Shown here piece after piece: positions 30,962 to 62,341 of a stretch of DNA of 64,000 bases; positions within the stretch are counted from its first letter, which is position 1; each line of letters opens with the position of its first letter. The notes under the pieces were generated by a model. That model ran no database searches, was not told the DNA's origin, and worked only from the letters and a program-made list of their open reading frames with translations. This DNA comes from Candidatus Iainarchaeum sp. (GTDB taxonomy: Archaea > Iainarchaeota > Iainarchaeia > Iainarchaeales > UBA10219), in the NCBI GenBank assembly GCA_018304425.1, contig JAGVWE010000004.1:1-64000 (forward strand), written 5' to 3'. Made by a program: the position numbers and the translations under genes.

Positions 30962-32692
30962 TTACGGCAAAAAACATTGCACGATGGGGTGCGCGAAGTT
31001 CAATTCATAGCTGTGGTACTTTCTTCCTGCTTGGTGGGGTTGGAACACGCCCGCATACAGCAACCGCGTGAAGACGGCCAACATGTAGCCTCCCGGAGCC
31101 CTGTGCGCCCTCGACTTGTCCAGGAACCAGGTCATGGGCTGGTGCATGGCCCGGGCTTCCCGCGTGGAACTGAGTATGGCGTTCACGACGCCAAAGGCGT
31201 ACCTGCGCCGGATTTCAGGATTGGAAGCCATGCGCCGGGGCAACACGCTTCTAACGGTTTCTTCCAGGAACTGGTTAAGCCGCGAATCCAGGGTTACCAG
31301 GGCTTCCACCAAACCCGGGCGATGGTCTCGCAAACCATTTAACCAGTCCTCTTCGGGCTTCCAAAAGTGTTCCTCCGACAACACCAGGCGATGGGTGGCG
31401 GGTTGTCGCGGTGATTCCGGCGGGCGCATGGTCGTTGCCGGTCCGTTGTTCCTCTTTTTTTCCTTGACTGGAAGGATTGCCGCGGCAGAAGCAGGCGCAG
31501 GAACTCGTGGTCTGGCAAGTACGGTGCTGGCCGAAGCAGGAGGCAGCTCTGCTTGCCTTCGTTGTTCCTGATATTCCTGAATGGCTTGCCGGGCGGCCTC
31601 CTCCGCCGGCTTGCCCTGCAGTCGAAGCCGGTAAGCAGCCTTGTAGACATGCACGGGGTCAATGCCCGCCGCGTGGGCTTGCAAAGTCACCACTTCTTTC
31701 AGTCGCTGCCTCCTGGCCGTAGGGCCCCGAATCTCACTCGTGACCTCGTTCCGGTAACCGTTCAACAGTTGCTCCAAGAACAAGGGTGGATTGAAGTTGG
31801 ACATGGTTTCAGCCAACTCGCCGCCCACGCGTTCCGCGATGCCGGCGTGGAAGGGGATTATCCGGTTCAAGGCGTACACGCGCACCGCTTCCCTGGAGAA
31901 CCGCTTCAAGAACCACACGGCCGCTTGCCGGGCATCCCCCAGATAAGCGGTTTTCGCATTATAGTCCAGGCCCCGTTTGCGTGCTGTATCGCTTGTAGCA
32001 TCAGTCCACGCCCGTATCTCCCTATTAGAGGGCCTGACGCCGTGGACGAAAAAATGCAGGCGGCCGTCCACGACCAAGGGATGGAAGTTTTCTTGCTTGA
32101 TTTTCACCCAGCCCGGGACTTCCAGGGGTTTCCGAGCCTTCCGGTCTTCCAGTGCACTCCATGAAGCCCGTTCCAGAAACTCATCGCCTGGCTTCGTGCT
32201 TGGCGGGCCGGGTTTCATGGTTAAAAAGTTTGCATTGGCCTGGAGCGGTGCGCGGCCCGGGGTGAGCGGCGCCTTGGCCGGGGCTTGCCGGGATTTCCCG
32301 GGTTCCGGAGCGACCGGGTCTGCTGGCGGCAGGCAATCAATGAACGCAACAAGGCCTTCCGACCAATTGGTGCCAGGCCGATTGGTTTGCCGGTATTTTG
32401 CCTGCTCTTCTTGGTGGAGGAAGCGCAGCACCTTGTCAAAATTACCCATCAATGCATTGCCAATGACGTTGCCTTCCGGGCTTGCGTGTTCAAACTCGTA
32501 GCCCTTGCGTTCCCGGGTCAGGAACCGCAACCGCCGCTTGGGGTCCCGTTGCCTGCGGTGGCCACGCGCCCTTCCAAGCGCGAGCCTAACCTTGATTTCA
32601 CTGGCTTTCCCCTCACTGGGCTTGTAACCCAACCGCTCCCAAATGCGCGCCCATTGACTCACGGTATAAATGGCGGCCCGCTTCATGCCCAT
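30962..32692 (-). CDS. Large basic orphan protein sharing a C-terminal domain with its upstream neighbour
   Basis: 576 residues, Arg/Ala-rich. The last 140 residues match the C-terminus of the adjacent upstream protein (32762-33988): shared HF(W/Y)KP, RDHRP, a NQF(L/I) helix, RR(R/K)YA(F/W)GVV, (W/Y)F(L/V)DKS, R(A/I)PGGYM and (S/G)YE(L/F)N(F/Y)(A/D)HPI. The segment PGGYM to HPI looks like a winged-helix. A Pro/Ala linker joins it to a longer unrelated N-terminal region. Its promoter core TTTATAGTCCC and A-G-C-A run is nearly the same as that of its neighbour. No database family is recognised; a nucleic-acid role is inferred from charge. Confidence 0.6.
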   Translation of the reverse strand: MGMKRAAIYTVSQWARIWERLGYKPSEGKASEIKVRLALGRARGHRRQRDPKRRLRFLTRERKGYEFEHASPEGNVIGNALMGNFDKVLRFLHQEEQAKYRQTNRPGTNWSEGLVAFIDCLPPADPVAPEPGKSRQAPAKAPLTPGRAPLQANANFLTMKPGPPSTKPGDEFLERASWSALEDRKARKPLEVPGWVKIKQENFHPLVVDGRLHFFVHGVRPSNREIRAWTDATSDTARKRGLDYNAKTAYLGDARQAAVWFLKRFSREAVRVYALNRIIPFHAGIAERVGGELAETMSNFNPPLFLEQLLNGYRNEVTSEIRGPTARRQRLKEVVTLQAHAAGIDPVHVYKAAYRLRLQGKPAEEAARQAIQEYQEQRRQAELPPASASTVLARPRVPAPASAAAILPVKEKKRNNGPATTMRPPESPRQPATHRLVLSEEHFWKPEEDWLNGLRDHRPGLVEALVTLDSRLNQFLEETVRSVLPRRMASNPEIRRRYAFGVVNAILSSTREARAMHQPMTWFLDKSRAHRAPGGYMLAVFTRLLYAGVFQPHQAGRKYHSYELNFAHPIVQCFLP

Positions 32693-32761: not shown

Positions 32762-33988
32762 TTACCCCTGCACGGTCCGCATGATGGGATGGTCGTAGTT
32801 GAATTCGTAGCCGTCGCTATGGCCATGGCTTTCGACGATTAACCCTTCTCGAATTAGTTGTTCTACGACGTCTGCCATGTAGCCGCCCGGAATCCGAGTC
32901 CCGCCACTTTTGTCCACGAAGTACTTTTTTCTTACATGGACGTTCCGGTTCACCCGCCCCGCCGTCAATAAAACTTTTACTACGCCCCATGCGTACTTCC
33001 GTCTTAATCCAATGTTGGCGGCCACCGGCTTTGGCAAGGCCAGGTCCAACACCCGTCGGATAAATTGGTTTGTCGGGGACTGCTGGTCCACCACCTGCAG
33101 CACGAACCGAGGCCGGTGATCACGCGTTCGTTCTAGATACTCTTCATAGGGTTTGTAGAAATGTCTGGGCCCGAGCGCTAGCGGTTCGCGTCGCAACACT
33201 GGAGGAGCGGGCGCCGCCGGGTTTGCCCTGGGCCTTCTCTTTTTGCCGTTGGGCGCCGGCCTTGTTTGGTCAGTTGCCAGCCGGTCAGCCTGGTAAGCGG
33301 GTGCAGGCCTGCCAGCTTGCGATGGCGGTGCCGGAATCAATCTCCTGATTTCCCGTCGCCTGGCCCCTTCAACTCGTGCCTCGGCTTCCCGCTTTTTTGT
33401 TTCCAAGGCGTTTTCGTATGCTTCCAGTGCACGGGACACAACCGTTTCCATGAGTTCACGGCCCGTTTGGCTGCCGGTTGCCTCTTCCCTGGCAACCCGT
33501 TGGGCTGCCCCCCGTGCCAGCGCTTCATCAAAGGACACCGTTCCTTCCGCCAAAAACGCCTTTCGCCCCCTGCCCAGCAACGGCGGCTTGGCCACGGCTT
33601 CGAGGGCATCCAGGGCCAGTTGCTCCAGTGCGGCTTGCCGGGCCTGTCGTTGGCCCCCAATGAAGCGTGCGCCCGGTCTTGCGCGGGCGACTTCCCTAGC
33701 CGTCTGCTCGCGCTTGCGGCCCACGCCGGTCGTGAACAGGATCCATTGTCCATTAAGCGGGAAGTCGTGCACGCCGCTCTCGGGCAGTGGCACGTTTTTG
33801 AGATTCAGCTGCTTCGCCAGCCACTGCCTGAGTTTTGGGAGGCCGCGCAGCGCGTGGGGGTCATCGATATAGCCGAATATTTTCGCCCAAGGCGTTGCCG
33901 GATGCAGCCGGCTCCGCTGCCTGGTTTTCATCCACCACAGCACCCGGGCAGGCGCTATCCGTTCATGCAGGGGGCGTGGAGTCGGCAT
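32762..33988 (-). CDS. Basic orphan protein, paralogue of the downstream gene
   Basis: 408 residues. The N-terminal 270 residues are Arg/Ala/Glu-rich and partly coiled coil, ending in a Pro-rich linker. The C-terminal about 135 residues are the same domain as in the 576-residue neighbour, with RDHRPRFV, SPTNQFI, LRRKYAWGVV, KYFVDKSGG and RIPGGYMADVV. The TATA-like TTTTATAGTCC stands about 25 bases before the ATG (leaderless). Tandem duplicates followed by fusion to different N-termini is the simplest explanation. Confidence 0.6.
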   Translation of the reverse strand: MPTPRPLHERIAPARVLWWMKTRQRSRLHPATPWAKIFGYIDDPHALRGLPKLRQWLAKQLNLKNVPLPESGVHDFPLNGQWILFTTGVGRKREQTAREVARARPGARFIGGQRQARQAALEQLALDALEAVAKPPLLGRGRKAFLAEGTVSFDEALARGAAQRVAREEATGSQTGRELMETVVSRALEAYENALETKKREAEARVEGARRREIRRLIPAPPSQAGRPAPAYQADRLATDQTRPAPNGKKRRPRANPAAPAPPVLRREPLALGPRHFYKPYEEYLERTRDHRPRFVLQVVDQQSPTNQFIRRVLDLALPKPVAANIGLRRKYAWGVVKVLLTAGRVNRNVHVRKKYFVDKSGGTRIPGGYMADVVEQLIREGLIVESHGHSDGYEFNYDHPIMRTVQG

Positions 33989-34021: not shown

Positions 34022-34363
34022 TTATCCCTTCAACTTCGCAATCGCTTCGGCGAGGTCGCCGCCGCTTGCCTTCAACGCGGTCTCGGCTTCCTTCTTCGAG
34101 CAACCGGCTTGTTCCATGACCAGCTTGACGTCTTCTTCGGGCGCCCCTACGGGGCCGGCTTCCTCGCGGGCCGTGCCAACCACGGTGTAGGTCTTCTGCC
34201 CGCCCATCTCGATGGCCGTGACGCTGGGGCTGTCCACCACCAACCGTTTTCCCTCCAACTCGAACACGACGCGCTTGGCGTTTATTTCCTCGGTCTTCAT
34301 GCCGAGTTGCTTCATCACGCGCTGCATGTCGCGGGGATTCATGTTGCCCATTCCCGGAAACAT
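34022..34363 (-). CDS. nac: Nascent polypeptide-associated complex protein
   Basis: 113 residues. The NAC beta-barrel (MKQLGMKTEEINAKRVVFEL, then TYTVVG) is followed by a C-terminal UBA domain (DVKLVMEQAGCSKKEAETAL, GGDLAEAI). Archaeal NAC is a homodimer at the ribosome exit tunnel. AAGGAGTGG lies before the ATG at 34363 and GGTTAAAAACG about 25-30 bases upstream serves as TATA box. Confidence 0.95.
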   Translation of the reverse strand: MFPGMGNMNPRDMQRVMKQLGMKTEEINAKRVVFELEGKRLVVDSPSVTAIEMGGQKTYTVVGTAREEAGPVGAPEEDVKLVMEQAGCSKKEAETALKASGGDLAEAIAKLKG

Positions 34364-34389: not shown

Positions 34390-34794
34390 TTAACCCCGCG
34401 TGCGCTTGGGGTACCAGACGTTTTTCAGCGCCTGGCGCAGCCTTGCCAGGTCGCGGCTCAATTGCAGTCGCACCCGGGCCACGTCTGCCTCCGTGGCCGA
34501 CCCAAACACCTGTTGCGCGATTTCCTTCAATGAGTTGGTTGGACGCCGGGAATCCAGCCCCAGAAAACGCGTGACCCCTTCCTTGCGTGCAGGGTTCCAC
34601 CGCAGCCCAGCCAAAAGCCGCTGCACCTGTGGGCGAGTGGGAAGGTGGCCCACGCTGGACGACCCCAAATATAGGGTCAACACGGCTTGGGACGTGATTT
34701 CGATTGGCACCCGGTTTCCGGCCGTGCGGCCAACCACTCCGCAGGAAAGGGAACCGCGCGTGCCACGCTTTGCTCGGGCGTTATGTGCTTTCAT
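34390..34794 (-). CDS. HTH protein resembling sigma-70 region 4
   Basis: 134 residues. The C-terminal half, about residues 78-128, reads VTRFLGLDSRRPTNSLKEIA, then QQVFGSATEADVARVRLQLSRDLARLR. This follows the layout of bacterial sigma-70 region 4 (RFGL, TLEEIG, a turn, V-x-x-I-E-x-x-A-L-x-K-L-R). Archaea do not use sigma factors, so this may be a distant HTH relative with a local role. The ATG at 34794 overlaps the stop of the aguBA fusion (ATGA), so it is translationally coupled to that enzyme. The N-terminal half is basic and unrecognised. Longer upstream frame is antisense-type noise from aguBA. Confidence 0.5.
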   Translation of the reverse strand: MKAHNARAKRGTRGSLSCGVVGRTAGNRVPIEITSQAVLTLYLGSSSVGHLPTRPQVQRLLAGLRWNPARKEGVTRFLGLDSRRPTNSLKEIAQQVFGSATEADVARVRLQLSRDLARLRQALKNVWYPKRTRG

Positions 34795-36749
34795 CTGCGC
34801 TTGCCTCCCCTCGGAAAACCGGTCTTCGGCACCTGCTGGGAGATGCAGTGCAGGGTCCCGCAGCCGTGCACGAGGTCGCGGCAGTCGATGCCGACAATCT
34901 TCCGGCCGGGGAAAAAGCGTCCAATGATTTTCCGCGCCCGCGCGTCCGTCGCGAGCCCGAACCGGGGCACGAGCACGGCCTTGTTCGCGATGTAAAAGTT
35001 GGCGTAGCTGGCCGGCATCCGCTTGCCGCCTGAAACCAGGTGGGGCACGGGCAGCTTCACGACCGTAAAAGGCGCGCCGTCCGCGTCCCGCGCTTTCCGA
35101 AGCCGCTCGAAGTTGTCCTTGAGGTTGTGGTAGTTGGGGTCTCTCCGGTCTCCTTCGAACGCGCACACGATGGTCTTTTCGTCCACGAACCGCGCGAGGT
35201 TGTCGACGTGGGAGTCTGTATCGTCTCCCTGCACTCCTCTGCCGAGCCAGATGACGTTCGAAACGTCCAGGTACTCGCAGAGCGTGGCCTCGATTTCCTG
35301 CCGGCTCAGGCCCGGGTTCCGGTTATCGTTCAACAAGCAGTCCTCGGTCGTCAACAGGCTGCCTCGGCCGTTGACGTCGATGGCGCCGCCTTCCATGACC
35401 ATGCCGGCGCGGAAGAACGGCTTCCTCCACTCGCGGTTGATGCGCGCGGGCACGGAGTCATCCTTCAACAATTCCTGGTACTTCCCGCCCCAGGCATTGA
35501 ACCGCCACTTGACCATGCCCAGCCTTTTCTGCTGTCGGTTGGCGACAAAGCTAGGCCCGTAATCCCGGAACCACACGTCCGCGTAACCGTGCTCGTAGAA
35601 CCTCACTTTCTTGGGGTCGGCCCCCTTCTCCTGGAGGAAAGCCTCCACCCTCTTTCGCATGCGTTTGCCGGTAACGAACAAGTTCACGCGCTCGCTCTTG
35701 GTTTCTTGCAGGGAGCGGATGAGGTGCGCGTAGGCCTTCTCGACGTTGCCCAGGTTCTCAAAGGTGATGAGGTCGTAGGGCCACGCCAAAAAAAGCGCGT
35801 CATGCTTTTCCCATTCAGCGGGGAAGCGATAGCCTTGCGCGGCCGGCGTCTTCCGGTGCAGCACGTCCTTCTTGGGCTTGAGGGCTTTCGGCTCCTTCAG
35901 CTCGACGTAGTCGCGGGGCCTGCGGTTGCGGAAGAAGCCCCAGCCCTCGCGCACCCGCTGGTTCTCGTCCAAGTCGATTTCAACTACAAGGGCCGCGTCC
36001 TTCTTCGGGCCCGCGTTGGCCAGCACCCTGCCAAAGGGGTCGGATACGAATGAATGCCCCCAGAAGGAGAGCCTTCCCTCGTTGCCCGTGCGGTTGACGG
36101 CTGCCACGTGCACGTTGTTGGCGATGGCGTGCGCGCGCTGGATGCAGGTCCAGGCACCCAGCCAGTCGTCGGGCTCCTTGTATCCCTTGATGCGGCCGAT
36201 GGCGGTCGGGTAAAAGATGATTTCAGCGCCTTTCAGGGCGGCGATGCGCGCGGCCTCGGGAAACCATTGGTCGAAGCAGATGAGGGGCGCGATTTTGGCT
36301 TTCCGGGTCTTGAAGACCTTGAACCCCAAATCCCCGTGCTCGAAGTAGTGTTGTTCCCAGAACAGGGGGTCGTGGGGCAAGTGCATCTTCCGGTAGGTTC
36401 CGAGGAGTTTTCCGCGTTCGTCGATGACCGCGATGCTGTTGTAGAACTTTTTTCCGTGCCGCTCGTAAATCGGGGCAATCAGGACGATGCCGAGTTCCTT
36501 GGCTAGGCCAGCGAGCAGGCGCGTGGTCGGCCCTGGAATGGCTTTCGCCAACGCGAATGCGGCCTCGTCCTTTTTCGCCTGCGGAAAGTAAAGCGTGTCA
36601 AACAATTCGGGCAGGCACACGATGTCCGCGCCCCGGGCGGCCGCCTGGCGGACGAGTCTTTCGGCCTTGGCGTGGTTGGCTTGCTTGTCCGCTTCCATGG
36701 ACATCTGGATTAAGCCGATGCGAAGCTTTCGGGCCACGAGGTGCACCAA
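34791..36749 (-). CDS. aguBA: Fused N-carbamoylputrescine amidase - agmatine deiminase
   Basis: 652 residues, two enzymes in one chain. Residues about 8-290 are a nitrilase-family amidase like AguB with the Glu48-Lys121-Cys158 triad (LPELF, RKMHLP, LICFDQWFPE). Residues about 310-640 are an agmatine deiminase like AguA with RDYGPSF, MEGGAIDVNG, DTDSHVDN and the C-terminal GCGTLHCIS (Cys635). AguA converts agmatine to N-carbamoylputrescine and AguB hydrolyses this to putrescine, so the chain can run both steps of polyamine synthesis. The frame begins with TTG (36749) or GTG (36746); GTTAATAAAGG about 25 bases upstream suggests a leaderless start there. It is followed by the coupled HTH gene. 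Confidence 0.9.
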   Translation of the reverse strand: MVHLVARKLRIGLIQMSMEADKQANHAKAERLVRQAAARGADIVCLPELFDTLYFPQAKKDEAAFALAKAIPGPTTRLLAGLAKELGIVLIAPIYERHGKKFYNSIAVIDERGKLLGTYRKMHLPHDPLFWEQHYFEHGDLGFKVFKTRKAKIAPLICFDQWFPEAARIAALKGAEIIFYPTAIGRIKGYKEPDDWLGAWTCIQRAHAIANNVHVAAVNRTGNEGRLSFWGHSFVSDPFGRVLANAGPKKDAALVVEIDLDENQRVREGWGFFRNRRPRDYVELKEPKALKPKKDVLHRKTPAAQGYRFPAEWEKHDALFLAWPYDLITFENLGNVEKAYAHLIRSLQETKSERVNLFVTGKRMRKRVEAFLQEKGADPKKVRFYEHGYADVWFRDYGPSFVANRQQKRLGMVKWRFNAWGGKYQELLKDDSVPARINREWRKPFFRAGMVMEGGAIDVNGRGSLLTTEDCLLNDNRNPGLSRQEIEATLCEYLDVSNVIWLGRGVQGDDTDSHVDNLARFVDEKTIVCAFEGDRRDPNYHNLKDNFERLRKARDADGAPFTVVKLPVPHLVSGGKRMPASYANFYIANKAVLVPRFGLATDARARKIIGRFFPGRKIVGIDCRDLVHGCGTLHCISQQVPKTGFPRGGKRR

Positions 36750-58579: not shown

Positions 58580-61500
58580 ATGTTCGCCAAGCAATTTCTC
58601 CCGCTCGTTTGCCTCCTGCTGTTCGCTGCCCTCGGCTCCGCCGCCCAGCTCACGGTCCACCTTGAAGGCCAGGGCTATGTCTCCTCCTATCCTTCGGGCA
58701 TCCTCTGCGGGGCCGCCTGCCAGGAAACCTATGACGAGGGCACGGAGATGACGCTGACCGCCCATCCCTCCGAGGGCATGACCTTCCTTAATTGGGAGGG
58801 CTGCGACTCCGCCAATGGCCTTCTCTGCATCGTCACGCTAAACGGCGATGTGGAGGTAACCGCCAACTTCTCCGGCCCAACCTCCACCGAGTTTAGGCTG
58901 CGGGTCACGCGCTCCGGCACGGCCACCGGAAAAGTGCAGTCCACGGATGGCCTGATTTTCTGCGGCTCCCTCTGCCTCTACGACGAAGCCAAGTACCAGT
59001 CCGGCTCCACCGTGACGCTCAACGCCTCGCCCGGAACCGCTTTCACTTCCTGGCAAGGCGACTGTTCGGGCACGCAAGCCACTTGCACGCTCTCCATGGA
59101 CTCAGACAAGGAAGTCGAGGCGGTCTTCGGCCAACCAACCCTAGTCAAAGAACTCCCCGAACCCGCGAAGCCCACGCCATCGCCCGGCCAGCCCCCGCAA
59201 ACCCAGCCGCCTTCAACGCCCCCCAAGCCCCCTGCGGGGCCCCCCAAGCCCGGCGACTTTTCCCTTCACGTCGAAGTGGCGGGCGGCCTTTCAGGCTCGC
59301 CCCCCGGCACGGTGGTTTCCTCCGACAAGCGCGTGAACTGCCAGGCCCCATGCGATGTCGGCTATGCCGCCGGCTCCCAAGTGCCGCTCGAGGCGGTGCC
59401 CGCCAAGGGATACAAGTTCAGCGGCTGGGAAGGCGCCTGTGGCGGCCCGCAAGCCGCGTGCACGGCGCTCGTCAAGGGCGGCTCCATTTTCTTCCGGCCC
59501 GTTACCAATGTGCGTGCTGTCTTCGTTCCCGTCCTTGCCAATGTGGAAGTCTCCGTGAGCGGGCCGGGCAGGGTCACTGACCCCTATCGGATAGGTTGTC
59601 CCGCTTTTTGCGCTGCAAGCTATCCGCTTCCCCAGGGAAGCGTTACACTGACCGCCTCCCAGGCCGCTGACGTGACCTTTGAAGGTTGGGGCGGCGCCTG
59701 CCAGGGCACGCAACCCACTTGCACGGTGGCCTTGAGCGAAGCCAGCCCCATGAAAGTCTCGGCTTCCTTCAAGGGCCCGCCGCCCCCGCCCAAGCTCACG
59801 GTCTCCGTGAAAGGAAATGGGAAGGACAAGCTGTGGATGCAGGTGGGGGGGCCAAAGCAGGCGGTAACTACAGTCGAATGCACCGGCGAATGCACCTACA
59901 CCTATCCCAGGGGAACGACCGTGCAGTTCGTGCCCTATCCAGATGCCCGCCAGCAGCTGAAGGATTTGGGGGGCGCCTGCCTCGGAAAAAAGGACGCTGA
60001 GGTCGCCTGCTCGGTGCTCCTCGACTCGGACAAGCAAGTCACGGCCTCCTTTTCGCCGCGTGATTTCCGCAAGCTGACCGTGGTCAAGCCCGTGCTGGGT
60101 GAAGTCGATTCCTCAAGTGTCATCCGGCCGTCCTCCGGCGGAGACATTCATTCTTGGGACGACAAAATCCGGTGCGGTAACGCAGACAACGCATGTTCCG
60201 CCGAATACGATTCGTTCATGAAGGTGACCCTCCAGTTCAAGGCAGACGACCCCAACGGCGTGGGCGTGTTCCTCAGCGGCTGCGACGAGGTCAAGCCCTC
60301 CTTCTATGGCGGGACCTACTGCCTCGTCGGCCTCAGCAAGGGCGACCGCACGGTTGAAACCTGGGGTTCCCTGCAGCAGGAGCAAACCATCGTGCGCGAA
60401 GCCCTTTTCCAGGTCTTCAACCAAAGGAAGGACTGCCACTCCCGCCTCAACCTCCTCCTCTTGACGGGCGAGCCATTCCAAAGGGTGTTGCCTGAATACA
60501 AGGCAAAGCGGGCGGGGAGGACAATAGAAGACGTGAAGGCTTACCTTAAAGGCCTGCCAGCCTCATGGCGGACAGACACCGGCATCCAGACCGCATTCGA
60601 CCAATGCAACGCCGACCTCGTGCAAGGGGCGCTCCGTGAGGTTTTCGCTGGTGAAAGCAAGCAGTTCCCGGTCCTCACCAACTTCCTCATGGACCCAAAC
60701 CAACGCCCAACGCAAAGAGGGGCAGCCATAATGTCCACTCTGACTGCAGCCCCACCGAACCCACCCGATTTCAAGGACTGGTTGCAAAAGAACAAAACCC
60801 TTGCCTATGAGCAATGGGGCATCAAGGATTTCCTGGACAACTGGAAACAAGGAGAGGAGGCGCGAAAAAAGCAGGACGAAGCCAAGCGCCAGGAAGAGGC
60901 CAACCGCACGCCTTCGATTTCCTCGATTTCGCCGGACGGCTGGCAGATCGGGAAACAACCTATCCTTGCGGGAGGCGACTTTGTCAACGTCGCTTCGGTG
61001 ACCATCGACGGCGCGGCCGTGCGGTTCGACCCGAGGTCCGCCAACGAAATCGCCCTGCCCGACATCGAATGGGGCGTCGACGAGCGCGGCCGCAAGCCCG
61101 ATAAGCCGGGCCGGGTGCGGGTCACCCTGGCCAATGGCAAGTACACGGAAGCGAACCTGATCTCCCCGGCCAGGGCCATCACCCTCCACGCGGAAGGGAA
61201 AGAGGAGGCCTGCTTCGGCGGCGTCGGGAAGGCCTGCAGCGGGGGCGGCGACGAATGGGATTGGAAATTCGGCTCCGACAAGCTGGTCGTCCCCGTCGGC
61301 TGCCTGCCGGAAAAGAACGGCTACCGCGAGTGCTGGGTGGTGCCGGGCAGCATCCGCCACGACAACTGCTGCGTGCGCTTCCCTTTCGGACAAATGTGTG
61401 CCGGAACCAGGCATTCGACGGACGGCAAGCCTGCCGAAGAGAACAACCACGATAGCCACTGTGTCCAGGAATGGGATGATGCCAAATGGGACGTGATCTG

Positions 61501-61717
61501 GCACCGGGCCTGGAAGCACAGCTTCCCCGTCAACCGGGGTCCGCCCGACCTGACTCCGGCCATCAGCTCCCGTTATCCTGATGGCGAAACCGTCACCACC
61601 GTCGGCTTGTGCGCCCCGAAGGAACACGAGATGCGTCAGGAAGCCGACGTTTCCTTCTGCTGCAGCCGCAGGTTCCGCAAGGGCTGGTTCGGTGAGAACA
61701 CCAAGATTTGCGCTTGA
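58580..61717 (+). CDS. Large secreted Cys-rich protein with InlB-like repeats and a TIG-like domain
   Basis: 1045 residues. Signal peptide, then about six repeats of 75-90 residues (near 22-100, 105-185, 228-315, 320-397, 402-490, 495-590), each with four cysteines (C-x2-5-C, then G-x-C ... C), a VTLTA strand and F-x-x-W-x-G-x-C: divergent InlB B-repeat domains stabilised by disulfides. A Pro-rich linker separates repeats 2 and 3. A helical middle part follows, then an IPT/TIG-like domain (SISSISPDGWQIGKQPIL, VASVTIDGAAV, about 770-870) and a Cys/His-rich C-terminal domain (CVRFPFGQMCAGTRHST) with no membrane anchor. Probably exported and surface-bound through a partner; the preceding lipoprotein is a candidate. 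Confidence 0.75.
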   Translation: MFAKQFLPLVCLLLFAALGSAAQLTVHLEGQGYVSSYPSGILCGAACQETYDEGTEMTLTAHPSEGMTFLNWEGCDSANGLLCIVTLNGDVEVTANFSGPTSTEFRLRVTRSGTATGKVQSTDGLIFCGSLCLYDEAKYQSGSTVTLNASPGTAFTSWQGDCSGTQATCTLSMDSDKEVEAVFGQPTLVKELPEPAKPTPSPGQPPQTQPPSTPPKPPAGPPKPGDFSLHVEVAGGLSGSPPGTVVSSDKRVNCQAPCDVGYAAGSQVPLEAVPAKGYKFSGWEGACGGPQAACTALVKGGSIFFRPVTNVRAVFVPVLANVEVSVSGPGRVTDPYRIGCPAFCAASYPLPQGSVTLTASQAADVTFEGWGGACQGTQPTCTVALSEASPMKVSASFKGPPPPPKLTVSVKGNGKDKLWMQVGGPKQAVTTVECTGECTYTYPRGTTVQFVPYPDARQQLKDLGGACLGKKDAEVACSVLLDSDKQVTASFSPRDFRKLTVVKPVLGEVDSSSVIRPSSGGDIHSWDDKIRCGNADNACSAEYDSFMKVTLQFKADDPNGVGVFLSGCDEVKPSFYGGTYCLVGLSKGDRTVETWGSLQQEQTIVREALFQVFNQRKDCHSRLNLLLLTGEPFQRVLPEYKAKRAGRTIEDVKAYLKGLPASWRTDTGIQTAFDQCNADLVQGALREVFAGESKQFPVLTNFLMDPNQRPTQRGAAIMSTLTAAPPNPPDFKDWLQKNKTLAYEQWGIKDFLDNWKQGEEARKKQDEAKRQEEANRTPSISSISPDGWQIGKQPILAGGDFVNVASVTIDGAAVRFDPRSANEIALPDIEWGVDERGRKPDKPGRVRVTLANGKYTEANLISPARAITLHAEGKEEACFGGVGKACSGGGDEWDWKFGSDKLVVPVGCLPEKNGYRECWVVPGSIRHDNCCVRFPFGQMCAGTRHSTDGKPAEENNHDSHCVQEWDDAKWDVIWHRAWKHSFPVNRGPPDLTPAISSRYPDGETVTTVGLCAPKEHEMRQEADVSFCCSRRFRKGWFGENTKICA

Positions 61718-61720
61718 TGT

Positions 61721-62341
61721 CTAATGGTACCGCGCCCGTTCCCCAATCTCTTCCATCTGCCTGAACACCCGCTCGGCCGCCCCCTGGCCGCAGGCCTCGG
61801 CATAGCCCTGGCAGACCGCTTTCCAGCCCTGTGGAAGGTCAAAGTGCGTGGCCTCAAACGTTTTCTTGAACACCAGCAAGTCGACGGCCTGGTCTTCCAC
61901 GCGCTTCGAGAAGTAGCCCAATCCGAAGTCCAGCAGCACCAATTCCGCCTTATTATGTAGCAGGACGTTGCTGGTCGTCAAATCCCCATGCACGATGCCG
62001 GCCGCGTGCAGCTTTCCCGCCATTTTCCCCAGCCGCTCACACCATCCCGTATTCTTTGCCGTCAACGCATCCTTCAACCGCGGCCCCTCCACGAACTCCA
62101 TGAAGACGCGTTTGCCCTGCCGGTCCACCTTGAACACCAAGGGAGTGCGCACGCCGGCCAGCTTGGCGCGGTGGAGCAGAATGCATTCCTGTTTGGTGCG
62201 CTCGCGCCTGATTTTTTCGTCCAATTCCTTGACGCGGTAGGTTTTCGGTTGGCGGTCTTTCACCAGGCAAGGCTGGCCGAGATACTCGTCCACGTACAAC
62301 TGGGCTTCCGCTCCCTGCTTGAGCCACTTCACTTCCTGCAC
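61721..62341 (-). CDS. bud32: KEOPS complex kinase Bud32
   Basis: 206 residues, a minimal protein kinase of the KEOPS complex that makes t6A37 in tRNA. Motifs: QGAEAQLY, Lys in CLVKDRQPKTYR, RRERTKQE, VHGDLTTSNVLL (catalytic loop) and LLDFGLGYFSK (DFG). The GTG at 62341 has GGAG upstream. Kae1, usually fused or adjacent in archaea, is not in the window. It overlaps the lipoprotein gene by 13 bases. Confidence 0.95.
   Translation of the reverse strand: MQEVKWLKQGAEAQLYVDEYLGQPCLVKDRQPKTYRVKELDEKIRRERTKQECILLHRAKLAGVRTPLVFKVDRQGKRVFMEFVEGPRLKDALTAKNTGWCERLGKMAGKLHAAGIVHGDLTTSNVLLHNKAELVLLDFGLGYFSKRVEDQAVDLLVFKKTFEATHFDLPQGWKAVCQGYAEACGQGAAERVFRQMEEIGERARYH

Follow-up and report, generated by a model that had tools for sequence, protein, structure and literature searches.

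An orphan ORF (P0001, 34390..34794, minus strand) encoding a predicted protein of 134 amino acids, 14% of them Arg, starts at the stop codon of a fused aguB-aguA gene (aguBA) in the window, the 64,000-nucleotide stretch of the Candidatus Iainarchaeum contig JAGVWE010000004.1 that we analyzed. We give an even chance to the explanation that this ORF is a lineage-specific small gene whose product, a basic, Arg-rich helix-turn-helix (HTH) protein, is translated together with aguBA and serves as a local regulator. The original prediction, that of a sigma-70 region 4-like protein, was accurate as an observation but overdrawn as an interpretation: the likeness to sigma region 4 lies in the predicted fold, and descent from a sigma factor was not shown.

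The 134 codons on the minus strand were confirmed, and the sigma-like words FLGL (residues 77-80), SLKEIA (88-93) and ARLR (117-120) are all present in the product. As had been noted, the start overlaps the stop of the polyamine gene: the ATG of the ORF and the TGA of aguBA share four bases (ATGA), an arrangement seen in 28 of 275 same-strand neighbour pairs of this genome. A Shine-Dalgarno-type sequence, GAGGGGAGG (34804..34812, minus strand), is located 9 nt 5' of the ATG, within the 3' end of aguBA; in the sampled genome, strong motifs of this type precede 62 of 241 confident genes, whereas just 5% of all ATGs have one. The DNA itself shows the ORF, its overlap with aguBA and the ribosome-binding motif. 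Because of the overlap and the ribosome-binding site, coupling of the ORF to the aguBA message is plausible, so this part of the proposed link with aguBA stood; aguBA itself, however, is a single gene, with a product of 652 amino acids, rather than two genes. Translation of the ORF would rely on termination-reinitiation at ATGA in the aguBA message, with help from the ribosome-binding site of the ORF.

The fused gene (34791..36749, minus strand) encodes N-carbamoylputrescine amidase plus agmatine deiminase (PF00795, CN_hydrolase, and PF04371), with matches to TIGR03381 and TIGR03380 that are both under the equivalog cut-offs. A relative of it with 54% identity occurs in genome G056, and G006 has two separate adjacent genes; in the stretches read, no recognisable HTH gene lies directly 3' of the agu genes of either genome. 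By eye, the fused gene of G056 adjoins genes for AdoMet decarboxylase and a deoxyhypusine synthase-like protein.

The next gene downstream of the ORF encodes the archaeal NAC (34022..34363, minus strand; 113 amino acids; TIGR00264, 119 bits), which was found in 77 of 86 genomes searched. The frame of the ORF occupies most of the 427-bp gap ahead of this gene. The NAC gene begins 26 bp past the ORF and has a ribosome-binding motif of its own as well as, by eye, a TATA-like sequence, TTAAAAAC; it is therefore possibly a transcription unit separate from the ORF. Inverted repeats that might serve as an operator were found neither at the promoter or start of aguBA nor at the start of the NAC gene. 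Further downstream, 30962-32692 and 32762-33988 (both minus strand) encode Arg-rich paralogues of 576 and 408 amino acids, whose C-terminal domains are 38% identical over 215 amino acids. This common domain was detected in 0 of 85 other genomes searched and corresponds to no Pfam family.

No homologue of the ORF was found by protein search in 93 relatives and about 86-87 genomes of the phylum, nor in GTDB contigs, IMG/VR viral contigs, plasmids or phages, and scans of the product against Pfam and NCBIfam gave no family at E<=10. Judged by its NAC gene the genome is archaeal, and it is the sole member of its family-level lineage among the genomes searched. Several matches were discarded: one in G086 (E 0.0116) overlapping another gene in a different frame, a weak one to phrog_9415 (E 0.026), and one to gene 1 of a Microbacterium phage (E 3), which belongs to phrog_3678. 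The top sequence match in the PDB (5xw7, E 0.0024), a BcsC-type TPR protein, is not DNA-binding and was likewise dropped.

The lack of homologues in any search would also be expected if the ORF were a non-gene, a chance frame in the G+C-rich DNA that separates aguBA from the NAC gene, with a coincidental likeness to HTH proteins, or else a very young gene. Codon usage bears on this alternative. Codon models trained on some 370 kb of this genome gave the ORF a native score of -0.01 per codon; called genes have a median of 0.41, and their 5th percentile is at 0.16. In the first codon model, 29% of ORFs nested within other genes scored as high, and one antisense frame at the locus is stop-free as well. 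With the atypical-gene model, 18% of wrong-frame windows equalled or exceeded the ORF, and 17% of right-frame windows scored as low. On the other side, the frame of the ORF scored best of the six locally under both the native and the atypical-gene models. Arg-rich genes with odd codon usage form a class in this genome: the two paralogues downstream (30962-32692 and 32762-33988) have native scores of 0.066 and 0.03, and a 239-amino-acid Sigma70_r4 protein encoded at G000:C5 scores -0.218 per codon, below the ORF. Since that gene, with its genuine Sigma70_r4 domain, scores worse, a poor score is compatible with a gene here. Codon usage leaves translation of the ORF unsettled, and the sequence evidence as a whole is somewhat in favour of a gene. 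The ribosome-binding site, the ATGA overlap and a helical domain that is fairly well predicted from a single sequence also argue against a chance frame, and we consider the non-gene or very young gene rather unlikely.

The small-gene explanation includes an HTH, which is a predicted structure. AlphaFold gave a poor model of the whole product (pLDDT 54, with residues 1-51 below 50). For the C-terminal part (residues 48-134; 34393..34653, minus strand), single-sequence AlphaFold2 predicted a four-helix HTH-like domain with a mean pLDDT of 78.7 and a pTM of 0.56, so that the HTH proposed for the C-terminal half was borne out as a predicted fold. The helices in these 87 amino acids are predicted at residues 54-63, 68-78, 89-97 and 102-127. 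The third is the predicted first helix of the HTH (LKEIAQQVF; 34504..34530, minus strand), and the last would combine the recognition helix with a long C-terminal helix (34414..34491, minus strand). The product would therefore consist of a poorly ordered N-terminus (1-50) followed by a C-terminal HTH domain (54-127), as a generic HTH DNA-binding protein might; helix 102-127 would contact DNA. We infer, and only infer, that the ORF is translated, that its product binds DNA as a local regulator, and that it controls aguBA or neighbouring genes.

When the C-terminal fragment was compared to the PDB with Foldseek, places 1-14 were all sigma region 4 structures, with TM values of about 0.5-0.6 and a non-significant best E of 0.53. 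This raises the alternative that the ORF is a diverged or degenerate true sigma region 4, captured from a bacterial or a resident DPANN sigma-70 gene, which would have been left as a stand-alone HTH regulator once region 2 was lost. We scored the ORF with a home-made sigma region 4 profile of nine sequences, of which that of E. coli RpoD was checked against the PDB. The ORF scored 9.6 bits. Of 3356 other ORFs 0 did better, as did just 2 of 5000 shuffles; since the choice of the sigma and DUF2285 families (see below for the latter) must be allowed for, this is marginal and not significant. With hhalign, the same profile gave the ORF a probability of 5%, whereas the sigma-like protein of a relative, used as a positive control, reached 97.8%; this control shows that hhalign would have detected a plain sigma case. 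In the Pfam scan the product matched neither PF04545 nor PF08281, and among the Sigma70_r4 matches listed for this genome (E below 0.01) the ORF is absent. Sigma region 2, the part that contacts the clamp of RNA polymerase and the -10 element, is represented by PF04542, which had no match in the ORF product. Compared to sigma-70 region 4, the ORF shares the predicted order of helices, the position of the HTH and the short SLKEIA and RLR likeness, but has neither a profile match nor region 2 or 3, and in the hhalign alignment its turn carries additional residues ahead of the recognition helix. The sigma relationship that had been proposed was not upheld by these comparisons. Genuine sigma-like proteins do occur in this genome and its relatives, yet we regard sigma descent as improbable. 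The fuller scenario, in which the region 4 domain of a resident sigma-70-like gene became a free-standing archaeal regulator that is co-translated with the polyamine gene and acts on it, has only a very small chance of being correct.

Profile comparison gave a slightly higher probability (15%, over 23 columns) for DUF2285, also called RovC_DNA-bd (PF10074; FseA, QseM). This is an extended-turn HTH family that resembles sigma HTHs (PMC10359603), and its likeness to them shows the ease with which separate HTH families share such words. The ORF might be a distant member of this family, which is carried by bacterial mobile elements; QseM is an example of a small HTH protein in this family that stands alone, as the ORF product would. 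The two share the core LD-x-R ... S-x-[KR]-E-[IV]-A-x-x-x-FG (LD.R.....S.+.IA...FG). A plasmid search with a DUF2285 consensus found no match; the family alignment was obtained by a plasmid search with the RovC stretch, and the resulting profile of sixteen sequences scored the ORF at 10.5 bits, above all 8356 decoys but not significantly. Read against the alignment consensus, the invariant positions D81, A93 and G98 are kept in P0001 and an R is replaced by K90, whereas the nearly invariant GGY end and LR of the third helix are missing. The alignment is limited to those 23 columns, the family is reported from proteobacteria, and PF10074 was matched at E<=10 neither by the ORF (Pfam) nor elsewhere in this genome, and the matches in relatives were all sub-threshold. 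Membership in DUF2285 is highly improbable.

The premise that archaea do not have sigma factors proved incorrect. A search of 53 genomes, made up of this genome and its relatives, gave Sigma70_r4 matches at E<=1 in 52, with 21 exceeding the curated cut-off; all four archaeal control genomes had such matches at E<=1 too. Sigma-70 factors were reported from DPANN archaea in 2021, with mis-binning ruled out (fam00359; PMC8204110). Because of these widespread matches and the published factors, a region 4-like HTH is unsurprising in this archaeon. At E<=1 this genome has eleven Sigma70_r4 places, of which one, elsewhere than the ORF, is above the cut-off. The 239-amino-acid protein mentioned above (L089:591-1310, minus strand; G000:C5, about 61390-62109) matches PF08281 (Sigma70_r4_2) at 7e-12 and also Sigma70_r4. 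By eye, its gene stands among archaeal housekeeping genes: those for enolase and PRPP synthetase flank it to one side, that for CTP synthase to the other. In a further protein of this genome (280 amino acids; L091:641-1483, minus strand; G000:C1, about 81840-82682), a NUMOD3 motif is joined to a Sigma70_r4 match of 19 bits, which is below the threshold.

Orphan HTH-like small proteins are common, and the ORF alone means little. It points to what is already published, that DPANN archaea hold sigma-70-like proteins alongside TBP and TFB. In two relatives there are proteins that exceed the Pfam cut-offs for region 2 as well as for region 4, L046:3-611 (minus strand, G025) and L047:1036-1734 (plus strand, G012, a 2-contig genome of 97% completeness). 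These correspond to the published DPANN sigma-70 factors (PMC8204110) and, as two-domain copies, are far better subjects than the ORF. The DPANN sigma-70-like proteins (fam00359, L046, L047 and the 239-amino-acid protein) exceed the Pfam cut-off, some of them with region 2, whereas the ORF does neither; what it shares with them is an archaeal genome and an HTH of the region 4 type, in the ORF product a predicted one. With the 239-amino-acid protein of its own genome, it also shares Arg-richness and an odd, in that protein strongly non-native, codon usage.
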